Origin: a candidate division WWE3 bacterium CG23_combo_of_CG06-09_8_20_14_all_40_14 | GTDB taxonomy: Bacteria; Patescibacteriota; WWE3; CG2-30-40-12 | Direction of reading: 5' to 3' | NCBI GenBank assembly: GCA_002770755.1 | Contig: PCQY01000006.1 | Coordinates: 1-33,301 of the forward strand | Length of the DNA: 33,301 bases | In this document: in pieces, positions 11,877-27,659 of the stretch | How positions within the stretch are numbered: the stretch's first letter is position 1 | Layout of the letters: each line of letters starts with the position of its first letter | Notes under the pieces: generated by a model | What the model was told of the DNA's origin: nothing | Seen by the model: only the letters and a program-made list of their open reading frames with translations | The model's database searches: none | Made by a program: the position numbers and the translations under genes

Positions 11877-13064
11877 CTAATGTTTGGACAATTTCAACAA
11901 AATCCCCACCCCCATTAAGCTCACAACCATAGAGGAACCTCCGTAAGAAATAAAAGGGAGAGTCACCCCCGTTAAAGGGATAAGATGGACCATAGCAAAA
12001 AGATTAATGAAGGTTTGAACGCCAAGCCAGCAGGAAATTCCAACAGCCAAAGACCTCCCAAAAACATCTCTTTGATTTTTGGCAATAGTTATACCGCGCC
12101 ATATTAAAGCCAAAAAAACCAAAGCTAAAACAACGGAGCCTACAAAACCAAATTCCTCCGCTATAACAGCAAAAATTGAATCAGACACCACCTCCGGGAT
12201 GTAAGCGTATTTCTGGCGGGACTCCCCGAACCCCAGCCCAAAAACCCCGCCAGAGCCAATAGCAATTAATATCTGTAAAATATGATAACCTTCCTTAAGA
12301 ATATCCGTTTCCCGGCGATTAAAAAAGGTCATAAGCCTTTGCCTTCTATACGCGGAGGAAAACGACAAAATTCCGCCTAATACTGCCATTAAAGGCAGGC
12401 CCAGAAATAGGTAAATTAAAGGCAGGTTGGATACAAAATACAAGGCAACTGCTATAGATATAAAAATAGCGGCCGTGCCAAAATCCGGCTCTAGAAATAC
12501 CAACCCCACTGTAGTTAAAACAAGAACTAAAAAACCGAGCTGTTTTCTTTTATCCTTTGGAGAAATTTTTTCCAGAAATAAACTGATGTATAAAATAAAA
12601 GCCAATTTTGCTATATCAGTTGGTTGAAAACTTATTCTACCCAAAAGGGGTACAGCGGGAAACGGAGGCGGATTTAATACCACCCATCTAAAGGCCCCAT
12701 AAGTTATTTTAGTAAAAGGAGTTTGGACAGAAGTTCCAAAAATTTTGGACAAGGTGGACTGCAAGGCGAGAACAGCCAAAAAACCAAGAGATATAAGCAT
12801 TAAAGGTTTGGCCCAAGATTTCAATACGCGCAATTTTACTTTATACACATACCACATCCCAAAAAAGCCTATCAAAACCCATACAAATTGCTGAAACAAA
12901 AACTTGTATTTATTTCCGAAGACATTTTGAGCATAGGAAGAGGAAGATTCAAACACCATCAAAAGGCCAAAAAGCGCAAGGGTTAGAACAAGATAAAAAA
13001 GTACCTTATCGTAATTTTCTCTCCTAACTCCTTTTTGATTTTTTCTTAAAATCCTATTATACAT
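11877..13064 (-). CDS. ftsW: SEDS-family septal peptidoglycan polymerase FtsW
   Basis: The 395-aa protein has about 10 membrane segments. SEDS motifs include FESSSSYA in the first helix, RWVVLNPPP and SFQPTDIAKLAF, FLEPDFGTAA, YRRQRLMTFF, the loop motif PEVVSDSIFAVIAEEFGF with the catalytic Asp, and PLTGVTLPFISYGGSS. Its position among murB, murG and ftsQ makes it FtsW, the partner of the FtsI encoded at 18285-19970. The stretch between FGTSVQTPF and PLLGRISFQ carries an extra proline-rich loop. It is separated from murB by a 153-bp gap holding a palindromic repeat and its own promoter. Confidence 0.93.
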   Translation of the reverse strand: MYNRILRKNQKGVRRENYDKVLFYLVLTLALFGLLMVFESSSSYAQNVFGNKYKFLFQQFVWVLIGFFGMWYVYKVKLRVLKSWAKPLMLISLGFLAVLALQSTLSKIFGTSVQTPFTKITYGAFRWVVLNPPPFPAVPLLGRISFQPTDIAKLAFILYISLFLEKISPKDKRKQLGFLVLVLTTVGLVFLEPDFGTAAIFISIAVALYFVSNLPLIYLFLGLPLMAVLGGILSFSSAYRRQRLMTFFNRRETDILKEGYHILQILIAIGSGGVFGLGFGESRQKYAYIPEVVSDSIFAVIAEEFGFVGSVVLALVFLALIWRGITIAKNQRDVFGRSLAVGISCWLGVQTFINLFAMVHLIPLTGVTLPFISYGGSSMVVSLMGVGILLKLSKH

Positions 13065-13073
13065 ACATTAAAT

Positions 13074-13102
13074 AGAGTAGCATCGGTATGCAAAGTTGAC
13101 AA
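13074..13102 (-). promoter_or_regulatory. Candidate promoter of ftsW
   Basis: On the minus strand -35 TTGTCA (13097-13102) and a weak -10 TACTCT (13074-13079) are spaced 17 bp. The -10 ends 9 nt before the ATG, so the leader would be only about 2-3 nt. Confidence 0.4.
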
Positions 13103-13169
13103 GGTTTCCAAACACCGCAACAAAGCGGTAAAAGGAGGTATTACTTTTTCCTGTTACCTACGCCCTCTG

Positions 13170-13202
13170 TAGGGGTCTGACCCCAAAGGGGTCAGACCCC
13201 TA
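13170..13202. repeat. Nested palindromic intergenic repeat, copy 1
   Basis: A perfect 15-bp inverted repeat with loop AAA. Each arm, TAGGGGTCTGACCCC or its complement, itself contains the near-palindrome GGGGTC-N-GACCCC. It lies between the murB stop and the ftsW promoter. The flank TAAATTCCCT after it is shared with copy 2 (15690-15722). No T-tract follows on either strand, so a classic terminator is unlikely. It looks like a REP-type or MITE-type element. Confidence 0.85.
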
Positions 13203-13217
13203 AATTCCCTCTAAATT

Positions 13218-14255
13218 CTAAAACTCCCCCACACGCACAATTTCCTCTTTTAACCGTATACCTAACTTATCTTCACACTTATCTTGGACAATTTTTATAA
13301 GCCTCGCCACATCCTTCGCTTTAACATTGCCACCTGCAACTATAAAATTAGCGTGGTTTTCGGAAATTTGAGCATCCCCCACTTTTAACCCTCTTAGACC
13401 TAATATTTTATCTATTACAAAACCCGCTCCGCAATTTTCTAAATTAAGCTTTTTTGCTTGAACAATCGTTAAATTGCTAAAAGTGCACCCAGCGGAATTT
13501 TTTGGTTGACCGCTTTTTCGTTTTAGCCATTCTCTTGAAACTGCCAAAGCTCTTTTTTTATCGCCCAAAGGAAAAACAAGTTTTGCCGAAAGAATAATTT
13601 TTGAATTATTCTGAAAGTAAGAGGAATTATATTTAAGATTAAGCGCTTCCCATGATAGCTCTTTAATAGTAAAATGTTTATCAATAAACGAAACGCTTTT
13701 AAGAAAGTCCCCAAAAAAATAATCTGCTCCGTGAATATTATTCCAAACTGCGCCACCAATAGTACCCGGAATACCTGAAAACCATTGAAGTCCCGTTATT
13801 CCATTACTTAATGTCTGGTTAATCAAAAAGGAAAGAAGCGTTCCGGAAAATACCTCAACCAAAACCCCTTTCTTAACATCCTCCTCGTATCGTAAATCTG
13901 CCGAAGACAGAAAACATTTCCTCCAGTGCGTCTCCTGCCTACGAGAGATGTTTCCCCTTTTAAGATTAAAAGGAATTTTACCCAAAACCTCTATTTTGGA
14001 CACATTATTTTTTATAACAAGCCCTCTGATACCTTTATCTCCAACAAGTATATTAGTACCGGAGCCTAAAACAAAAACTGGGATGCCCATTTCACAAGCG
14101 CATCTATAAGAAAGGATTAGCTTTTCTAAGTTGTCCACCGCAGTAAAATAATCTGCGGGACCTCCTACTCTTAAACTTGTGTGGCAGGACATAGATTCTT
14201 TTACAAAAACGGGGGTATGGGTAGCTTGTTCCAATTTAGATTTGAAAGTATCCAT
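13218..14255 (-). CDS. murB: UDP-N-acetylenolpyruvoylglucosamine reductase MurB, with an in-frame insert
   Basis: The 345-aa FAD enzyme reduces the MurA product to UDP-MurNAc with NADPH. Motifs present are TSLRVGGPADYF (26-37), the FAD loop VLGSGTNILVGDKGIRG, SGIPGTIGGAVWNN (160-173), the catalytic SAGCTFSN, and C-terminal SENHANFIV with ENHANF-type residues. Residues 102-127 (NISRRQETHW to YEEDV) are not part of the normal fold order and correspond exactly to a 78-bp palindromic insert. Without it the text reads LKRG-KKGVLVEVFSG, a normal MurB transition. It lies 6 nt behind murA. Confidence 0.92.
   Translation of the reverse strand: MDTFKSKLEQATHTPVFVKESMSCHTSLRVGGPADYFTAVDNLEKLILSYRCACEMGIPVFVLGSGTNILVGDKGIRGLVIKNNVSKIEVLGKIPFNLKRGNISRRQETHWRKCFLSSADLRYEEDVKKGVLVEVFSGTLLSFLINQTLSNGITGLQWFSGIPGTIGGAVWNNIHGADYFFGDFLKSVSFIDKHFTIKELSWEALNLKYNSSYFQNNSKIILSAKLVFPLGDKKRALAVSREWLKRKSGQPKNSAGCTFSNLTIVQAKKLNLENCGAGFVIDKILGLRGLKVGDAQISENHANFIVAGGNVKAKDVARLIKIVQDKCEDKLGIRLKEEIVRVGEF
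13875..13952 (-). mobile_element. Putative in-frame palindromic insertion element in murB
   Basis: On the plus strand AACATCCTCCTCGTA (13875-13889) and TACGAGAGATGTT (13940-13952) are inverted repeats, identical except for a 2-nt gap. The span is 78 bp, exactly 26 codons, and encodes a Cys/Trp/His/Arg-rich peptide unlike MurB. The layout resembles the palindromic elements that insert in frame into Rickettsia genes. Flanking CCCCTTT copies (13865-13871, 13954-13960) exist but do not give a frame-neutral target duplication. That the insert is mobile is inference. Confidence 0.55.
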
Positions 14256-14261
14256 TTAACA

Positions 14262-15572
14262 TTAACTTAACACTTCTATATCAGCACCGAGCTTTTTATA
14301 AATATTAAAAATATCTGGATACCTTCTTTTTAAAATATCTACTCCGTGTATCACGGTAGTTGCGGAATCGGCTAAACTTGCCAAGAATATAGCCATACAA
14401 GCTTGTATTACCCCTGGAGAAGATATTTCGCCGCCATTAAACTTAACGGGACCTTCCACAATAATTTTTTGCGGGTCGCACATAAATATATTGGCTCCCA
14501 TTTCGTTTAAATTTTTCGCAAACTCAAGTCCGCTTTCATACATCCAATTTTGCAGTAAAATTCTTCCGTTACATTTGCAAGCAAGTGTCGCCATTACGGG
14601 AAGCACATCTACAGGAAATCCGGGCCATGGGCGAGGAACAAATTTAGGCAAGGTGCCCCCCGCTAAAGGAAATCCGCCTTTATTATTTATAGACAGGTTA
14701 AATGGGCCCTTAACCAACAAATTCTTTTTATCTTTAATAATAAAAATTCCAAATTTTTCAAACCATGTTAGTATTCCGTCCATAATATCAGGAATATTGC
14801 CGTTTTTAATAACAATTTCCCCCTCCGTTACAGCCGCCGCCACAATATAACCTGCTATATCCACAAAATCTGGTTTGGGGATAAAAACTGCAGAATTAAG
14901 TTTGGATCTCCCCAAAATTTTTAAGCGGTTGGAGCCTAATCCTGTTATTCTTGCCCCCATGTCCTGCAAGAGATTCATTAAATCGCATATATGCGGTTCG
15001 GATGCAGCATCAATTACGGTGATTTCAGAATTAATTCCGCTTGCATACATCACTATATTCTCCGTAGCCGTAACACTTGCCTCGCATTGCCAAATGCAGT
15101 ACTCCTTTTTGGGTTTTGAGGGAGCGGTAAGCTCCACAAAATCTCTGTGAACTTTAACAATTACCCCCGCTTTTTGAAATGCATCTATATGGGCGGAGAT
15201 AGCTCTTTTCCCCAAAACACAGCCTCCGGGCAAAGGAATTTGGGCTTTGCCAAAGCGAGCAAGCATAGGACCCGCAAACAAAATAGAGGCTCTTATCTGA
15301 TTGCCTAGAACAGAATCAACTTTGTAAGAATGGATATTTTTGCAGGTAATTTTTAAGTTGTTAAAATCTCCATCCTCAACCTCGGCTCCTAAAAGTTTTA
15401 GCATTTTTAATATCTTCTCTACATCCGTGGACTTTGGCACATTTTTGTAGGTAATAGTTCCACTACTTAGTATACAAGCCGGAAGGGCGGCGACGATAGA
15501 ATTTTTGTTGGGGATGGGAGTTGCGATACCTTGCAATTTATTTCCTCCCATAACCTTAATAGTTCCATTCAC
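14262..15572 (-). CDS. murA: UDP-GlcNAc 1-carboxyvinyltransferase MurA (catalytic residues intact)
   Basis: The 436-aa enolpyruvyl transferase starts peptidoglycan precursor synthesis by adding PEP to UDP-GlcNAc. The residues expected from E. coli MurA can be placed: Lys23-Asn24 in PNKNSIVAAL, Arg94 in IRASILFAGPMLARFG, the catalytic Cys118 and Arg123 in PLPGGCVLGKRAISAH, Asp322 in PWPGFPVDV, and a C-terminal Arg in KRRYPDIF. The usual ENRF motif reads QNWMY. It starts with GTG at 15572. It is followed 6 nt later by murB, so the two consecutive steps are co-expressed. A second, degenerate MurA-like gene is at 17037-18281. Confidence 0.93.
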   Translation of the reverse strand: MNGTIKVMGGNKLQGIATPIPNKNSIVAALPACILSSGTITYKNVPKSTDVEKILKMLKLLGAEVEDGDFNNLKITCKNIHSYKVDSVLGNQIRASILFAGPMLARFGKAQIPLPGGCVLGKRAISAHIDAFQKAGVIVKVHRDFVELTAPSKPKKEYCIWQCEASVTATENIVMYASGINSEITVIDAASEPHICDLMNLLQDMGARITGLGSNRLKILGRSKLNSAVFIPKPDFVDIAGYIVAAAVTEGEIVIKNGNIPDIMDGILTWFEKFGIFIIKDKKNLLVKGPFNLSINNKGGFPLAGGTLPKFVPRPWPGFPVDVLPVMATLACKCNGRILLQNWMYESGLEFAKNLNEMGANIFMCDPQKIIVEGPVKFNGGEISSPGVIQACMAIFLASLADSATTVIHGVDILKRRYPDIFNIYKKLGADIEVLS

Positions 15573-15689
15573 ACTTTTAGAAACGATTTAGGAGCAATTT
15601 TTATTACCGGATACATATAAAACCAACTAAAAGGTTGTGTTGAAGGGGTAAAAGCAAGCATCCCTATTATCCCGCAATAAAGACCTTTG

Positions 15690-15722
15690 TAGGGGTCTGA
15701 CCCCGGAGGGGTCAGACCCCTA
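15690..15722. repeat. Nested palindromic intergenic repeat, copy 2
   Basis: The same 33-bp unit as copy 1 with loop GGA instead of AAA: a perfect 15-bp stem with GGGGTC-N-GACCCC in each arm, and the same right flank TAAATTCCCT. It sits in the 175-bp divergent gap between murA and the MurF-like gene, directly upstream of the latter's -10 box. Confidence 0.85.
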
Positions 15723-15732
15723 AATTCCCTTA

Positions 15733-15741
15733 TGGTACAAT
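15733..15741 (+). promoter_or_regulatory. Extended -10 of the MurF-like/sigma operon, leaderless geometry
   Basis: TGGTACAAT (TGG plus TACAAT at 15736-15741) ends exactly 6 nt before the GTG start at 15748. The -35 position falls inside the right arm of palindrome copy 2 and has no TTGACA match. Confidence 0.55.
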
Positions 15742-15747
15742 AGAGGT

Positions 15748-16542
15748 GTGAAAACTATCTTAAGAACAACAGTAAGACACATTTTAGGGTTTTTAACCCG
15801 CTTAACCATAAAAAAACACCACTCTACCGTTATAGCAATTATAGGGAACGGCGAAACCTCGGTTGCTAGAGAAATTCTTTACGAAAATATTCACCAAAGA
15901 TACCCCGCGCGAAGAAATTTAGAAATTCTTGAAGCTGAATTTAGCATACCTTTAACAGTTCTTGGCATTTTAACCTACCCTTCAAACATTGTTAAATGGC
16001 CAAACCTGATAATGTCCTCCTTGCTAAAAACGCTTTATCTAAAACCCAACCCTCACTTTCTAATTATAGAAATTCCGGAAATAAATAAAAAAATAATCAA
16101 CTTTTGGCTAACTAGACTAACCCCTCAATATATTTTAATACTAGGAAAAAGCAAATACACTCCAAAACTTTCCCAAAAAAACATTTACAGCAACACAAAA
16201 GCCATATTCAGAAAGATTGGTATAAAAGAAACTATAAAGGAATTGCCTCAGCCGAGAATAAAGATACTAAAAGGCATAAGAAACGCTACCATTATTGACG
16301 CCGCCTCCTACTATACCCCACCGCCAATAAAATCCGTACTGGAAATATTAGATAAAAAAACTAAAGGACGAATAATACTTTTTTCGGATTTAGAAAAAGA
16401 TAGCACTGTGGCGTTAAAAGCTTTTCCCAGCGCCATAATAAACCCTAAAAACCTTGAAATACAACCCACAGATATTTTAATAATAAGAGGAAACAAATTA
16501 AAAACCCAAAACCTGCTTAATAAATTTATCAACCACCCCTAA
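15748..16542 (+). CDS. Degenerate MurF-like Mur-ligase homologue, probably not catalytic
   Basis: The 264-aa protein resembles a shortened MurF (usually about 450 aa). It lacks the N-terminal domain. The ATP loop, normally GxxGKTS, reads IGNGETS (32-38), with Glu in place of the essential Lys. Later parts still follow MurF order: SIPLTVLGI (66-74), LIIEIPEIN (105-113), ATIIDAASYYTPPPIKSVL (180-198, compare MurF TIIDDSYNANPxSM) and a GRIILFSDL stretch. The final ILIIRGNK matches the C-terminal MurF strand. Most of the central ligase domain is deleted. A binding or regulatory role is inferred, perhaps sensing UDP-MurNAc-peptide. It starts with GTG and is followed 2 nt later by an ECF sigma gene. 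The reading frame is intact, which suggests it is maintained. Confidence 0.65.
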   Translation: MKTILRTTVRHILGFLTRLTIKKHHSTVIAIIGNGETSVAREILYENIHQRYPARRNLEILEAEFSIPLTVLGILTYPSNIVKWPNLIMSSLLKTLYLKPNPHFLIIEIPEINKKIINFWLTRLTPQYILILGKSKYTPKLSQKNIYSNTKAIFRKIGIKETIKELPQPRIKILKGIRNATIIDAASYYTPPPIKSVLEILDKKTKGRIILFSDLEKDSTVALKAFPSAIINPKNLEIQPTDILIIRGNKLKTQNLLNKFINHP

Positions 16543-16544
16543 AA

Positions 16545-17027
16545 ATGCCGAAAAAATTTAATTTTGAAAAAATTTATAAGGAATATTATCCCAAAATACT
16601 GAATATGATGAAAGCCAAAACATCAAAAATTGAGGATGCCGAGGATATAACGGGCATAGTCTTTGAAAAAGCTTTCAAAGGTTTAAGCAACTTTAAATGG
16701 CAAGGCATCCCCGTTTCAAGCTGGCTTTATAAAATAGCAAAGAACAGTCTGATAGATTTTTACAGGAAAAAAAAGGAAACTTTAACCGCAGAGAATATAC
16801 TGGAACTAAAAAGCCCCGCGCTTACTATTGAGCAGGATATTGTGTCCACCTTATATTTTGAGCAAATTCTTAAACATTTAAAACCAAGGGACCGAAAGAT
16901 TATATATATGAAGTTTTTTGAGGGGCATACTAACAAAAGCATTGCCAAAAAACTTAAGCTAACCGAAAACAATGTGGCGATAATAATATACAGGGTAACT
17001 AAAGACTTGAAAAAGAATTTAGATTAG
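16545..17027 (+). CDS. ECF-type RNA polymerase sigma factor
   Basis: The 160-aa sigma70-family protein has only regions 2 and 4. Region 2 (about 7-75) includes EDAEDITGIVFEKAF, then WLYKIAKNSLIDFYRKKK, the -10 binding helix. Region 4 (about 108-157) has LKPRDRKIIYMKFFEGHTNKS and the helix-turn-helix IAKKLKLTENNVAIIIYRV. It is one operon with the MurF-like gene (2-nt gap, no Shine-Dalgarno). No anti-sigma gene with a membrane helix is adjacent; the partner in the operon is the MurF-like protein. It converges on the MurA-like gene with a 9-bp gap. Target promoters are unknown. Confidence 0.9.
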   Translation: MPKKFNFEKIYKEYYPKILNMMKAKTSKIEDAEDITGIVFEKAFKGLSNFKWQGIPVSSWLYKIAKNSLIDFYRKKKETLTAENILELKSPALTIEQDIVSTLYFEQILKHLKPRDRKIIYMKFFEGHTNKSIAKKLKLTENNVAIIIYRVTKDLKKNLD

Positions 17028-17036
17028 CTGCATAAT

Positions 17037-18281
17037 TCAAGCTTTCTCCTTGATGACAGCTCCTAAATTTTGGAGTTTTTCTTTGGTGTTTTCTAACTCG
17101 CTGTTTATAATTTCAGCATTTCGTATTTCCGTTTTTCCTTTCGCGCCTAAACCCGCAACTACTAAAGCCGCCACAGAAATTGCCTCTTCGGCTTCTGTTA
17201 TAACTCCCTTGAGTTTCGTGGGACCAAATACCTTAATACCCGAGTCCAAAAATTCTATTTTGGCGCCCATCCTGTTTAACTCTTTGGCAAACTCAAACCT
17301 ATTAAGCACCATATCGGTTACTACACTTTCCCCCGCAGCTTTAGTTAGCAGAACGGATATGAACGGTTGCCAATCCGCCATAAAACCAGGGTAGGGCTTA
17401 ACCTCAATGTTTGATGGTTTAAACAAATTTTCCGGGTCTGCCCAAATTCGCATCTCGCTAGGGGAAATTATTTCATAGTTTGCGCCCATAAATGAAAGTT
17501 TGCTTATGAAAGAGGTTAAATGATTGGTATTTAAATTCTTAATAACAATGCTCCCATTGGTAAAAAGCGCGCAGGAGGCATAAAAAACCGGTTCATTTCT
17601 ATCCGGTATTATTGTGTGCTCCAACTTACCCAAGTTTCTAACACCTTCTACCAATATTGTTCTAGGATTTTGGTCCGCGCGTTTTATTTTAGCGCCCATT
17701 TTGTTAAGAGCGGATATGAGATCATCCACCTCCGGCTCCGCCGCCGCATTAGTAATAACACTTGAACCTTCCGCTAAAACCGAAGATAAAATGGCATTAT
17801 CCGTTCCAGTATGTGTACTGGATAAAAAATTGATCTCTGCAGCCCGCAAAGACGAACATTCAAATTCAAAAACCGACCCTTTCTCCGCTATACTAACCCC
17901 TAAACTTTTAAGCACCTTAAAATTCATATCAAAAGAATACTTTGAATTTTGGGGCAAAATAGCCTTACCAAACCTCGCTAAAAGGGGTCCTACAAACAGG
18001 ATTGACGATTTGATGTTTTTGGAAAAAGCAGGGAGTTCAAAAGAATTCAGCCCGGAACTATTTATCTCCAAACAACCGTTACTCTTAAACTCTGCAGAAA
18101 CCCCTAAACTTTTTAACAGCTCAATAAACAAAAAAACATCCCCTACCCTTGGAACATTGAATAATTCCAAAAATCCATCGCTAACAATTGCGCCTGCCAA
18201 AATTTTCAACGCCGAGTTTCTTGCGCCAGAAATTTGAACGGTCCCGCTTAAAGGAAATTCCCCCAAAATTTTGTATTTCAT
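17037..18281 (-). CDS. MurA-like protein without catalytic Cys loop
   Basis: The 414-aa protein has the full MurA fold (SGARNSALKIL, LLARFGKAILP, PYPGFMADWQPF, LNRFEFAKELNRMGAKIEF), but most active-site positions are changed. Lys22 is Arg21, Arg91 is Lys91, and the loop PGGCxxGxR is replaced by PQNSKYSFDMN (110-120), with neither the Cys nor Arg120. The C-terminal DRGY Arg is lost. Asp303 is kept. Some MurA have Asp for Cys, but here the whole loop differs, so enolpyruvyl transfer is unlikely. It is the last gene of the mraZ operon, 3 nt after ftsI. A binding or regulatory role is inferred; a different transferase activity is an alternative. Confidence 0.8.
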   Translation of the reverse strand: MKYKILGEFPLSGTVQISGARNSALKILAGAIVSDGFLELFNVPRVGDVFLFIELLKSLGVSAEFKSNGCLEINSSGLNSFELPAFSKNIKSSILFVGPLLARFGKAILPQNSKYSFDMNFKVLKSLGVSIAEKGSVFEFECSSLRAAEINFLSSTHTGTDNAILSSVLAEGSSVITNAAAEPEVDDLISALNKMGAKIKRADQNPRTILVEGVRNLGKLEHTIIPDRNEPVFYASCALFTNGSIVIKNLNTNHLTSFISKLSFMGANYEIISPSEMRIWADPENLFKPSNIEVKPYPGFMADWQPFISVLLTKAAGESVVTDMVLNRFEFAKELNRMGAKIEFLDSGIKVFGPTKLKGVITEAEEAISVAALVVAGLGAKGKTEIRNAEIINSELENTKEKLQNLGAVIKEKA

Positions 18282-18284
18282 AAA

Positions 18285-19970
18285 TTATTTATCGGGCGGT
18301 ATTCTGTAATAAGCCGCTAAACTTTCGGCCATATCCATCCAAATCGGCACTGCCGTTTCGGAAGCGTAAATGCTAGCCGTAGGTTCCGCCAGCTTAATTA
18401 GCATAACAAATTTTCTACTTTTTGGCAAAAATCCAACAAAGGTAGCATTAGTTTTGCTGGGGTCATATTCTCCCTCCAAAGGTATTTGCGCAGTACCAGT
18501 CTTTCCTGCAACTAGATATTTCTTTGAGACAAAAAATTTCGCCTCGCCTCCAGAAACTGCTGCCGTTAGCATATCAACCATCGTTTCTGATGATTTTTTG
18601 GAAATAACTCTTCTTAGAGCTTTAGGCTCAAATTCTGCAATAGTTTTTCCTTTTTCGTCCATAATTTTTTCGGCTACAAAAGGCTTCATTAAAATACCGT
18701 CATTCGCTATAGCAGAAAATGCCATTACTACTTGAAGAGGAGTTGCCGAAATGCCCTGACCAAAAGAAGCGGTAGCTAAATCAATGTCCCGCCAATCTGA
18801 AACTTCCCTTATAATACCCGTATCACCCCCTTCAAGGTCAATACCAAGCTTATTGCCAAATCCAAAATTGATAAAATACTCCCTTAAATGTTTTGCCCCA
18901 ACTATTTTTCCAACCCATGCCGCCCCTAAATTATTAGAATGCTGAAGTATGCTCTCTATAGTTTCTATGCCATAATGTTTGCCATCCCATGTATCAACTA
19001 TATGACCGGAAAAACTTTTAGGCCCGTCATCTACATAAGTTGTGGAAGGCGTAACCTTTCCCATATCAATTGCCGAAGACATAGTTAACGCTTTTACCAC
19101 CGATCCCGGCTCATAAGTATCAGCAATTGCCATATTTCTAGCATTATGCTCCACATCTTCTTCACTAGAAAAATTAGCCATAGCAATAATCCTCCCCATT
19201 TGAGGCGCAACAACAATTGCCGTTCCAGATTTAGCGCCGTATTTAACTACCGCCTCTTTTAGTTTTTCTTCAATAATAAATTGAACCGTTCTATCCAGGG
19301 TTAAAGTAATACTGTGCCCATCTTTGGAAGATATTTTCTTATAATCCCCCACAGCTATAGGATAACCAAAAGCGTCCTTTTCCTGAAAAATTGTACCGGA
19401 AATGCCCTTAAGATCACCTTCGTAAAATCCTTCTATGCCAAAATATCCTTTCGGATTGCCTTCTTTGTCGCTTCCAACAAAACCTAGAACTTGGGAAGCC
19501 AAACCTTTTTCCGGGTAATAACGAACAAATTCTTCTTCAAAACCAATTCCATTAAATTTTAGCCTTTCAATTTCTTTTATTTGCTCCAAAGTTAAGTTTT
19601 TTTTCAAAGATATCCAAAAAAGATCGGATAACAGCTTTTCTTTTAGGGCAAGTTCTAGCTCCTCGCTTTTAATTGAGTCCTTTTCTAAAATAATCGCTAT
19701 GCTTTTTGCGTATTTCGCAGGGTCGGGAATTTTTTTTGGTTCCGCATACAATAAATACCGCATTTCGGTTAATGCTAAAGGAAAATTGTCCGATGTATAA
19801 ATATCTCCCCTTTTAGCACTTAAAAATATACTGGACTGATGCTGTTTTTTTGCAAGTGCTTTATACTCCTCATAACCGCGCACCTGCAAAGTATACAACC
19901 TAACAACAAAAATCAGAGTTAGGGATACAAAAAAAGATATTATAATATGTGCGCGCCACACCAAACGCAT
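18285..19970 (-). CDS. ftsI: Class B penicillin-binding protein, FtsI/PBP3-like
   Basis: The 561-aa bitopic transpeptidase has an N-terminal membrane helix at about 8-27, a pedestal domain (KRGDIYTSDNFPLA, then EEFVRYYPEKGLASQVLGFVG), and an intact transpeptidase domain. That domain has SxxK as SVVK (290-293), SxN as SNN (345-347), and KTG (490-492) in VAGKTGTAQ. It cross-links septal peptidoglycan with FtsW. No PASTA repeats are present. The start codon shares 1 bp with the ftsL stop (TAATG), so translation is coupled. Its position after mraZ-rsmH-ftsL supports FtsI over an elongation PBP. Confidence 0.95.
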   Translation of the reverse strand: MRLVWRAHIIISFFVSLTLIFVVRLYTLQVRGYEEYKALAKKQHQSSIFLSAKRGDIYTSDNFPLALTEMRYLLYAEPKKIPDPAKYAKSIAIILEKDSIKSEELELALKEKLLSDLFWISLKKNLTLEQIKEIERLKFNGIGFEEEFVRYYPEKGLASQVLGFVGSDKEGNPKGYFGIEGFYEGDLKGISGTIFQEKDAFGYPIAVGDYKKISSKDGHSITLTLDRTVQFIIEEKLKEAVVKYGAKSGTAIVVAPQMGRIIAMANFSSEEDVEHNARNMAIADTYEPGSVVKALTMSSAIDMGKVTPSTTYVDDGPKSFSGHIVDTWDGKHYGIETIESILQHSNNLGAAWVGKIVGAKHLREYFINFGFGNKLGIDLEGGDTGIIREVSDWRDIDLATASFGQGISATPLQVVMAFSAIANDGILMKPFVAEKIMDEKGKTIAEFEPKALRRVISKKSSETMVDMLTAAVSGGEAKFFVSKKYLVAGKTGTAQIPLEGEYDPSKTNATFVGFLPKSRKFVMLIKLAEPTASIYASETAVPIWMDMAESLAAYYRIPPDK

Positions 19971-27618: not shown

Positions 27619-27659
27619 TAAATAGGGGTCAGACCCCAAAGGGGTCTGACCCCTATTTA
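27619..27659. repeat. Nested palindromic intergenic repeat, copy 3
   Basis: A perfect 19-bp inverted repeat, TAAATAGGGGTCAGACCCC and its complement, around loop AAA. The central base of each arm is reversed compared with copies 1 and 2 (A then T), so this is a second subtype. It begins 3 nt after the stop of the Wzy/GT39 fusion gene. No T-tract follows in the direction of that gene. Confidence 0.85.

Follow-up and report, generated by a model that had tools for sequence, protein, structure and literature searches.

A MurF-related protein without the P-loop lysine is a conserved neighbour of an ECF sigma factor in two classes of Patescibacteria

Anti-sigma action is the commonest role of the partners of ECF sigma factors, and soluble anti-sigma factors exist (PMC8103513). 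The anti-sigma domains of classes I–III (ASD) are helical domains (PMC7406223), and ECF sigma factors that have no recognisable anti-sigma partner constitute a stated open question (PMC8103513). The locus described here resembles ECF/anti-sigma pairs of the RseA, CnrY and RsbN types in that a sigma factor is co-encoded with a conserved partner, which could likewise be cytoplasmic, but this partner, designated MurFL, is derived from a Mur ligase and has neither an ASD I–III helical domain nor a membrane segment. A Mur ligase homologue has also been recruited into a bacterial-type transcription apparatus in plants, where MurE/PAP11 sits on the plastid RNA polymerase (PMC12681378, PMC9456514). 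PAP11 is of the MurE type and full length, keeps many catalytic residues and is bound to the β′ subunit and PAP1, whereas MurFL is of the MurF type, is truncated, is without the P-loop lysine and is genetically tied to a bacterial ECF sigma factor. The LytM-domain protein DipM, too, is a non-catalytic wall-enzyme homologue, and it controls wall physiology; it acts, however, on autolysins and not on a sigma factor (PMC10336132). Searches of the open-licence literature for a Mur ligase with a sigma factor, for an anti-sigma pseudoenzyme and for Patescibacteria ECF sigma factors gave no description of the MurFL–sigma pair.

The DNA that we analysed (the window, 33,301 nucleotides) forms the beginning of contig C22 in a WWE3 (Katanobacteria) genome of 635 kb and 94% completeness, and those relatives in its family alignment that bear names likewise belong to candidate division WWE3/Katanobacteria. 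A sequence-only reading of the window had described, at 15748–18281, a MurF-like gene, an ECF sigma gene and a convergent MurA-like gene inside the dcw cluster. A check of the open reading frames bore out the coordinates, frames and spacing of that reading, and the neighbouring genes confirmed the dcw setting. The features of the locus are as follows.

14262..15572, minus strand: MurA1, likely active MurA (context), divergent from MurFL; from active-site alignment
15733..15741, plus strand: extended −10-like motif TGGTACAAT, ending 6 nt 5′ of the GTG start of MurFL
15748..16542, plus strand: MurFL, predicted MurF-like pseudoenzyme, 264 aa, GTG start; from the open reading frame, family alignments, AF2 and Foldseek
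16545..17027, plus strand: ECF sigma factor, 160 aa, regions 2 and 4 intact
17037..18281, minus strand: MurA2, MurA paralogue without the catalytic loop (pseudo-MurA), adjoining pbp; from PF00275 and active-site alignment
18285..19970, minus strand: PBP/FtsI transpeptidase (context, dcw)

The two genes of the plus-strand pair are separated by a gap of 2 nt. On one side of them lie the minus-strand genes mraZ, mraW, an ftsL-like gene, pbp and MurA2, the last of which converges on the sigma gene and is found 9 nt past its stop codon; beyond the pair the dcw cluster continues with MurA1, murB, ftsW, murG, ftsQ, ftsA and ftsZ. An Rfam search of positions 13000–19000 gave no structured RNA. A palindrome, GGGGTCTGACCCC-N3-GGGGTCAGACCCC, occurs in three intergenic copies in the window (13172–13200, 15692–15720 and 27625–27653), where none would be expected by chance, and one copy sits just 5′ of the MurFL promoter motif.

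As a single sequence MurFL gave no match in Pfam or NCBIfam, and a profile of the ten WWE3 members matched the MurF structure 3zl8 with an E-value of 4.7e-6. The AlphaFold2 model of the window protein (mean pLDDT 90.6, pTM 0.73) was compared with the PDB by use of Foldseek, in which the top matches were MurF (E-value 3.2e-6, probability 1.00) and the twelve best matches were all MurF or pseudomurein ligase structures; the global TM-scores of these matches were low (0.39–0.49), as expected from the large deletion in the protein. A member from the second class of genomes described below, modelled with a pLDDT of 86, gave the same answer with MurF TM-scores of up to 0.62. On both profile and predicted fold, MurFL is thus by descent a member of the Mur ligase superfamily and is related to MurF. 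The WWE3 and second-class subtypes match each other over their first 133 residues (hhalign probability 99.7), and in a tree with 29 MurF proteins, three WWE3 Mur ligases and two MurEs MurFL formed one clade with support of 100/99, with an identity between families of 29–36%. MurFL shares sequence and predicted fold with MurF and with the N-terminally short MurF-like ligases of Patescibacteria in the central domain and, in WWE3, also in the C-terminal domain, but compared with MurF-like ligases of 430 aa it is approximately 165 residues shorter, stands in a separate clade and is without the P-loop lysine in 33/33 members.

The P-loop column in question holds lysine in 29/29 ordinary Patescibacteria MurF proteins, in 0/26 sigma-paired MurFL proteins and in 0/7 unpaired ones, and no MurFL orthologue with an intact P-loop lysine was therefore found among the 33. 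In the ungapped alignment of the window protein, G-N-G-E-T-S stands against G-S-V-G-K-T, with Thr37 in the lysine column and Glu36 at the second glycine. The earlier description of this lesion as GET for GKT was thus right as to the missing lysine but misplaced by a column, as threonine and not glutamate takes the position of the lysine. The proteins from two WWE3 genomes (G008 and G013) seem by eye to retain an intact Walker A motif (‘GKT’), but this is shifted by one column and again places threonine in the lysine column, so that the lesion is universal in the MurFL family. MurFL starts approximately 30 residues ahead of the P-loop, and a complete UDP-MurNAc-binding N-terminal domain was not found. 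In WWE3 the second half of the central ATPase domain is missing and the C-terminal domain is shortened but kept, and in most second-class members the central domain is kept and the C-terminal domain is absent. Having no P-loop lysine and only partial domains, MurFL is, judged by its sequence, dead as an enzyme and is not predicted to be a functional MurF ligase. The WWE3 proteins nevertheless share a conserved C-terminal motif, I/V-D-A-x-x-Y-x-P-P, together with conserved arginine residues. No strong hydrophobic segment that might form a membrane anchor was found in MurFL, nor was there a match to any known anti-sigma family at the thresholds used.

The adjoining ECF sigma gene is intact, as had been read from the sequence, and both of its regions were recognised: Sigma70_r2 at residues 10–77 (E-value 1.7e-13) and Sigma70_r4_2 at residues 104–151 (E-value 5.8e-10) by Pfam, and the whole by TIGR02937 with 90 bits against a cut-off of 42.9. 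With sigma2 and sigma4 present, sigma3 absent and a length of 160 aa, the protein is an ECF sigma factor (sigma-70 family, group IV). It scored far under the cut-offs of the NCBIfam equivalog models shown, the best being TIGR02952 with 87 against 206 bits. Only one other protein with a sigma-70 region 2 was found in the same genome, on contig C8. In a tree with 20 other ECF sigma factors of the same classes, the paired sigma factors stood apart with moderate support (88/77), and the sub-branching among them resembles that of MurFL.

Conservation of the pair, which the sequence-only reading had proposed to check in related genomes, was assessed in 45 WWE3 genomes, in 86 genomes of a second class (the class of G303) and in a 380-genome sample of the phylum, mostly draft metagenome assemblies. 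In WWE3 the cognate sigma factor (E < 1e-45, the next sigma factor being at 7e-30) is present in exactly the same 10/45 genomes as MurFL, and the two genes are adjacent in nine of these ten, the window included; in the tenth, G008, each gene lies at a contig end. The second class contributed 16 genomes with an adjacent pair, mostly in the co-directional order murA-MurFL-sigma-murE, which brings the number of adjacent pairs to 25 across the two classes, and a search of the phylum sample with a combined profile gave no other strong MurFL members. The WWE3 pair runs opposite to the genes around it, and in most WWE3 loci the MurFL and sigma genes overlap or lie within a few bases of each other. 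As the pair is inverted in WWE3 and co-directional in the second class, it has been kept as a unit through at least one rearrangement.

Exceptions to the pairing were also found. In one family, f87, all seven genomes with MurFL have murA-MurFL without the cognate sigma gene; murE comes next in the six whose contig runs on (L128, L129 and L234–L237), and L238 ends after MurFL. As the f87 proteins nest inside the second-class clade, the sigma gene was probably lost in this family. Their MurFL sequences have changed at H24, L69, G73 and W84, which are fixed or nearly so in paired MurFL, and they stand on a very long stem branch (1.8). Since these seven genomes have MurFL and no sigma factor, MurFL may also have a sigma-independent role. 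Conversely, in G420 the sigma gene directly follows pbp without MurFL. Short MurF-like proteins of G058, G084, G114 and G274 were considered as instances of the same module and rejected, since in the cases examined the gene comes after one for an aminotransferase and a sigma gene is lacking. This different type, a short MurF central-domain protein of 218–245 aa directly after an aminotransferase-type gene, was observed at L130 5601–7495, L131 6279–8173, L132 5911–7816 and L242 2186–3582; the aminotransferase-type gene was checked with Pfam in L130, L132 and L242, the P-loop of the short protein is altered in several cases, and no sigma gene is present. Recoding was considered as the reason for the broken frames in L127, but translation table 25 failed to restore them.

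In the comparison between the window and its congener G001, whose MurFL is 66% identical, the frames are intact and dN/dS was approximately 0.23 for MurFL, 0.15 for the sigma gene and 0.09 for MurA2, these being rough Nei–Gojobori values with synonymous sites near saturation. Such values indicate that both MurFL and the sigma factor are under purifying selection. The MurFL and sigma distance matrices were correlated with r = 0.67 (n = 15), but the partial correlation given pbp was 0.14, a value reached by 1852 of 2000 permutations, and by this measure there was no excess co-evolution over the pbp control gene. At the WWE3 loci a hexamer with at most one mismatch from TATAAT lies 4–13 nt 5′ of the MurFL start in 9/10 cases (0/5000 shuffles), which suggests a leaderless MurFL–sigma transcript from a housekeeping-type promoter. 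The same −10 feature is present at some other window genes and is thus not special to the pair. Autoregulation is common among ECF operons. An autoregulated ECF promoter was looked for 5′ of MurFL and was not found, the TATAAT-like −10 standing there instead, so that ECF autoregulation is not seen; nor was a target promoter motif of the sigma factor identified.

The MurA-like gene that converges on the sigma gene was reported earlier to be without its Cys loop, and active-site alignment agrees with this in the window. MurA2 matches PF00275 (E-value 2.7e-54), but at each of the positions K22, R91, C115, R120, R371 and R397 the residue is either a different one or missing (R in place of K22, a gap at C115, Y in place of R120 and S in place of R397), and it is not predicted to be a functional MurA. 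The convergent MurA is also degenerate in G001, G007, G016, G018 and G022, whereas all nine checked active-site residues are kept in G008, G006 (in two contig pieces) and G020 (with Asp at the Cys site). A second, Cys-bearing MurA is present in the window genome, G001, G007, G018 and G022 and was not found in G016 (88% complete). In the second class the MurA neighbouring the pair has a Cys or Asp and the majority, if not all, of the other residues, and it is intact at the sigma gene in G303, G257 and G418. Strongly degenerate MurA genes adjoining pbp were observed without the MurFL–sigma pair in G002 (L087 3038–4321), G004 (L084 7520–8707), G005 (L086 7681–8919) and G009 (L085 7904–9139), and the pbp-adjacent degenerate MurA is, judged on its active site, a second conserved pseudoenzyme. 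The circuit of two pseudoenzymes around the sigma factor that the sequence-only reading had envisaged is not supported by this comparison, since three WWE3 families have an intact convergent MurA and the degenerate form also occurs next to pbp in genomes without the pair. The active-site table rules out MurA2 as an obligate third part of the module, and we regard it as a bystander or independent pseudoenzyme and no fixed part. Most simply, MurA1 would have taken over first, and MurA2 would then have lost its catalysis but been retained near pbp for another purpose. The window MurA1 keeps the equivalents of K22, R91, C115, R120, D305 and R397, with R331, D369 and R371 changed. All members of the WWE3 MurA1 type that were checked keep Cys115, K22, R120, D305 and R397 and have lost R331, R371 and usually D369, an unusual active site.

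We tentatively favour the reading that MurFL and the sigma factor form a two-gene regulatory module in the dcw cluster, in which a dead Mur ligase is kept as the dedicated cytoplasmic partner of the sigma factor. The lack of a catalytic lysine and of a membrane anchor, together with the lasting tie to one ECF sigma subfamily, make this the best reading, and the data suggest that a dead enzyme has been recruited to help control a sigma switch in two Patescibacteria classes. A Mur ligase would have lost catalysis and been retained as the partner of one ECF sigma factor, a step to which the ancestry, catalytic loss, pairing and selection described above all speak. MurFL would then bind the sigma factor, most likely keeping it inactive, or possibly presenting it to RNA polymerase instead; a Mur-derived pocket, or contacts with Mur enzymes, could couple MurFL to the state of wall-precursor synthesis; and the freed or activated sigma factor might adjust envelope and division genes. 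Wall-precursor status is suggested as the input by the ancestry and location of MurFL. The narrower proposal, that MurFL is a soluble anti-sigma factor which senses the status of cytoplasmic wall precursors or of Mur enzymes and thereby links peptidoglycan synthesis to transcription, we consider possible but somewhat unlikely. Against a partner of the sigma factor stand the occurrence of MurFL without sigma in the seven f87 genomes and of sigma without MurFL in G420, and the second-class position of MurFL between murA and sigma-murE also fits a wall-enzyme role. The lack of excess co-evolution over pbp, of a sign of autoregulation and of an identified target promoter motif likewise count against it.

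That position is the starting point for a rather doubtful alternative, in which MurFL serves the cytoplasmic wall-precursor machinery as a structural or allosteric subunit without catalysis (with MurA, MurE or MurF, for example) and the sigma factor is merely an operon-mate whose level tracks dcw without contact. The second-class MurFL adjoins murA with murE nearby, the sigma-less family keeps murA-MurFL-murE, and co-evolution beyond phylogeny is not detectable; however, the WWE3 pair is intact though inverted, its genes overlap or lie a few bases apart in most loci, the MurFL sequence is strongly changed where sigma is missing, and the sharing of an operon would not by itself bind MurFL to one sigma subfamily through a rearrangement. 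It is unlikely that MurFL is instead a positive cofactor, promoting the stability of the sigma factor or its docking on RNA polymerase in the manner of MurE/PAP11, and not an inhibitor. Although in plants a MurE homologue belongs to the peripheral subunits of the plastid RNA polymerase (PMC12681378), its reported contacts are the β′ subunit and PAP1 and no sigma factor; the place of MurFL directly 5′ of sigma, overlapping or a few bases away in most WWE3 loci, and a housekeeping-type promoter suited to a constitutive partner would agree with such a cofactor, but anti-sigma control is the commonest ECF arrangement (PMC8103513) and G420 has the sigma factor without MurFL, which is hence not always needed. 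The conserved C-terminal motif and arginine residues of the WWE3 proteins might point to a reduced enzymatic, nucleotide- or UDP-sugar-handling activity, with the sigma pairing serving to co-regulate it. This we hold to be very improbable, as the P-loop lysine is absent throughout, the WWE3 proteins have lost the second half of the ATPase domain and most second-class members have no C-terminal domain. Least credible is a dying Mur duplicate hitch-hiking beside an unrelated sigma gene: the loss of catalytic residues and the fast change between families might be so explained, but 25 adjacent cases over two classes, intact frames and the dN/dS values of 0.23 and 0.15 rule out simple decay, a possibility against which the sequence-only reading had already argued.

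On its sequence MurFL is a conserved partner of a new kind for an ECF sigma factor, and its ancestry lies clearly in wall synthesis. Should it bind the sigma factor, this would show that a metabolic ligase can become a sigma regulator, and Patescibacteria would offer a testable link from the wall to transcription. After plant MurE/PAP11, it would be another Mur ligase, the second, that the transcription machinery has captured, and under the anti-sigma reading it would represent a new class of ECF control in bacteria with few regulators.

Other Mur ligase genes were also observed in these genomes. No Mur ligase (PF08245) was found in the 94%-complete window genome (G000), in which murA, murB, murG, ftsW, pbp and two MraY-family genes are present; the congener G001 has a 414-aa Mur ligase between MurFL and murA1 (L021 11043–12287), and the same spot in the window is 175 bp long (15573–15747). 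This absence may reflect gene loss or an assembly gap. In G002 one frame of approximately 1340 aa (L087 7447–11463) carries three fused Mur ligases, with three PF08245 and three PF02875 stretches, and search matches indicate the same architecture, also of approximately 1340 aa, in G009 (L085 11463–15488). A fusion between a class I/II aminotransferase and a MurE-like ligase lies divergent from MurFL in G008 (L025 1126–3687) and G013 (L026 3–2216).
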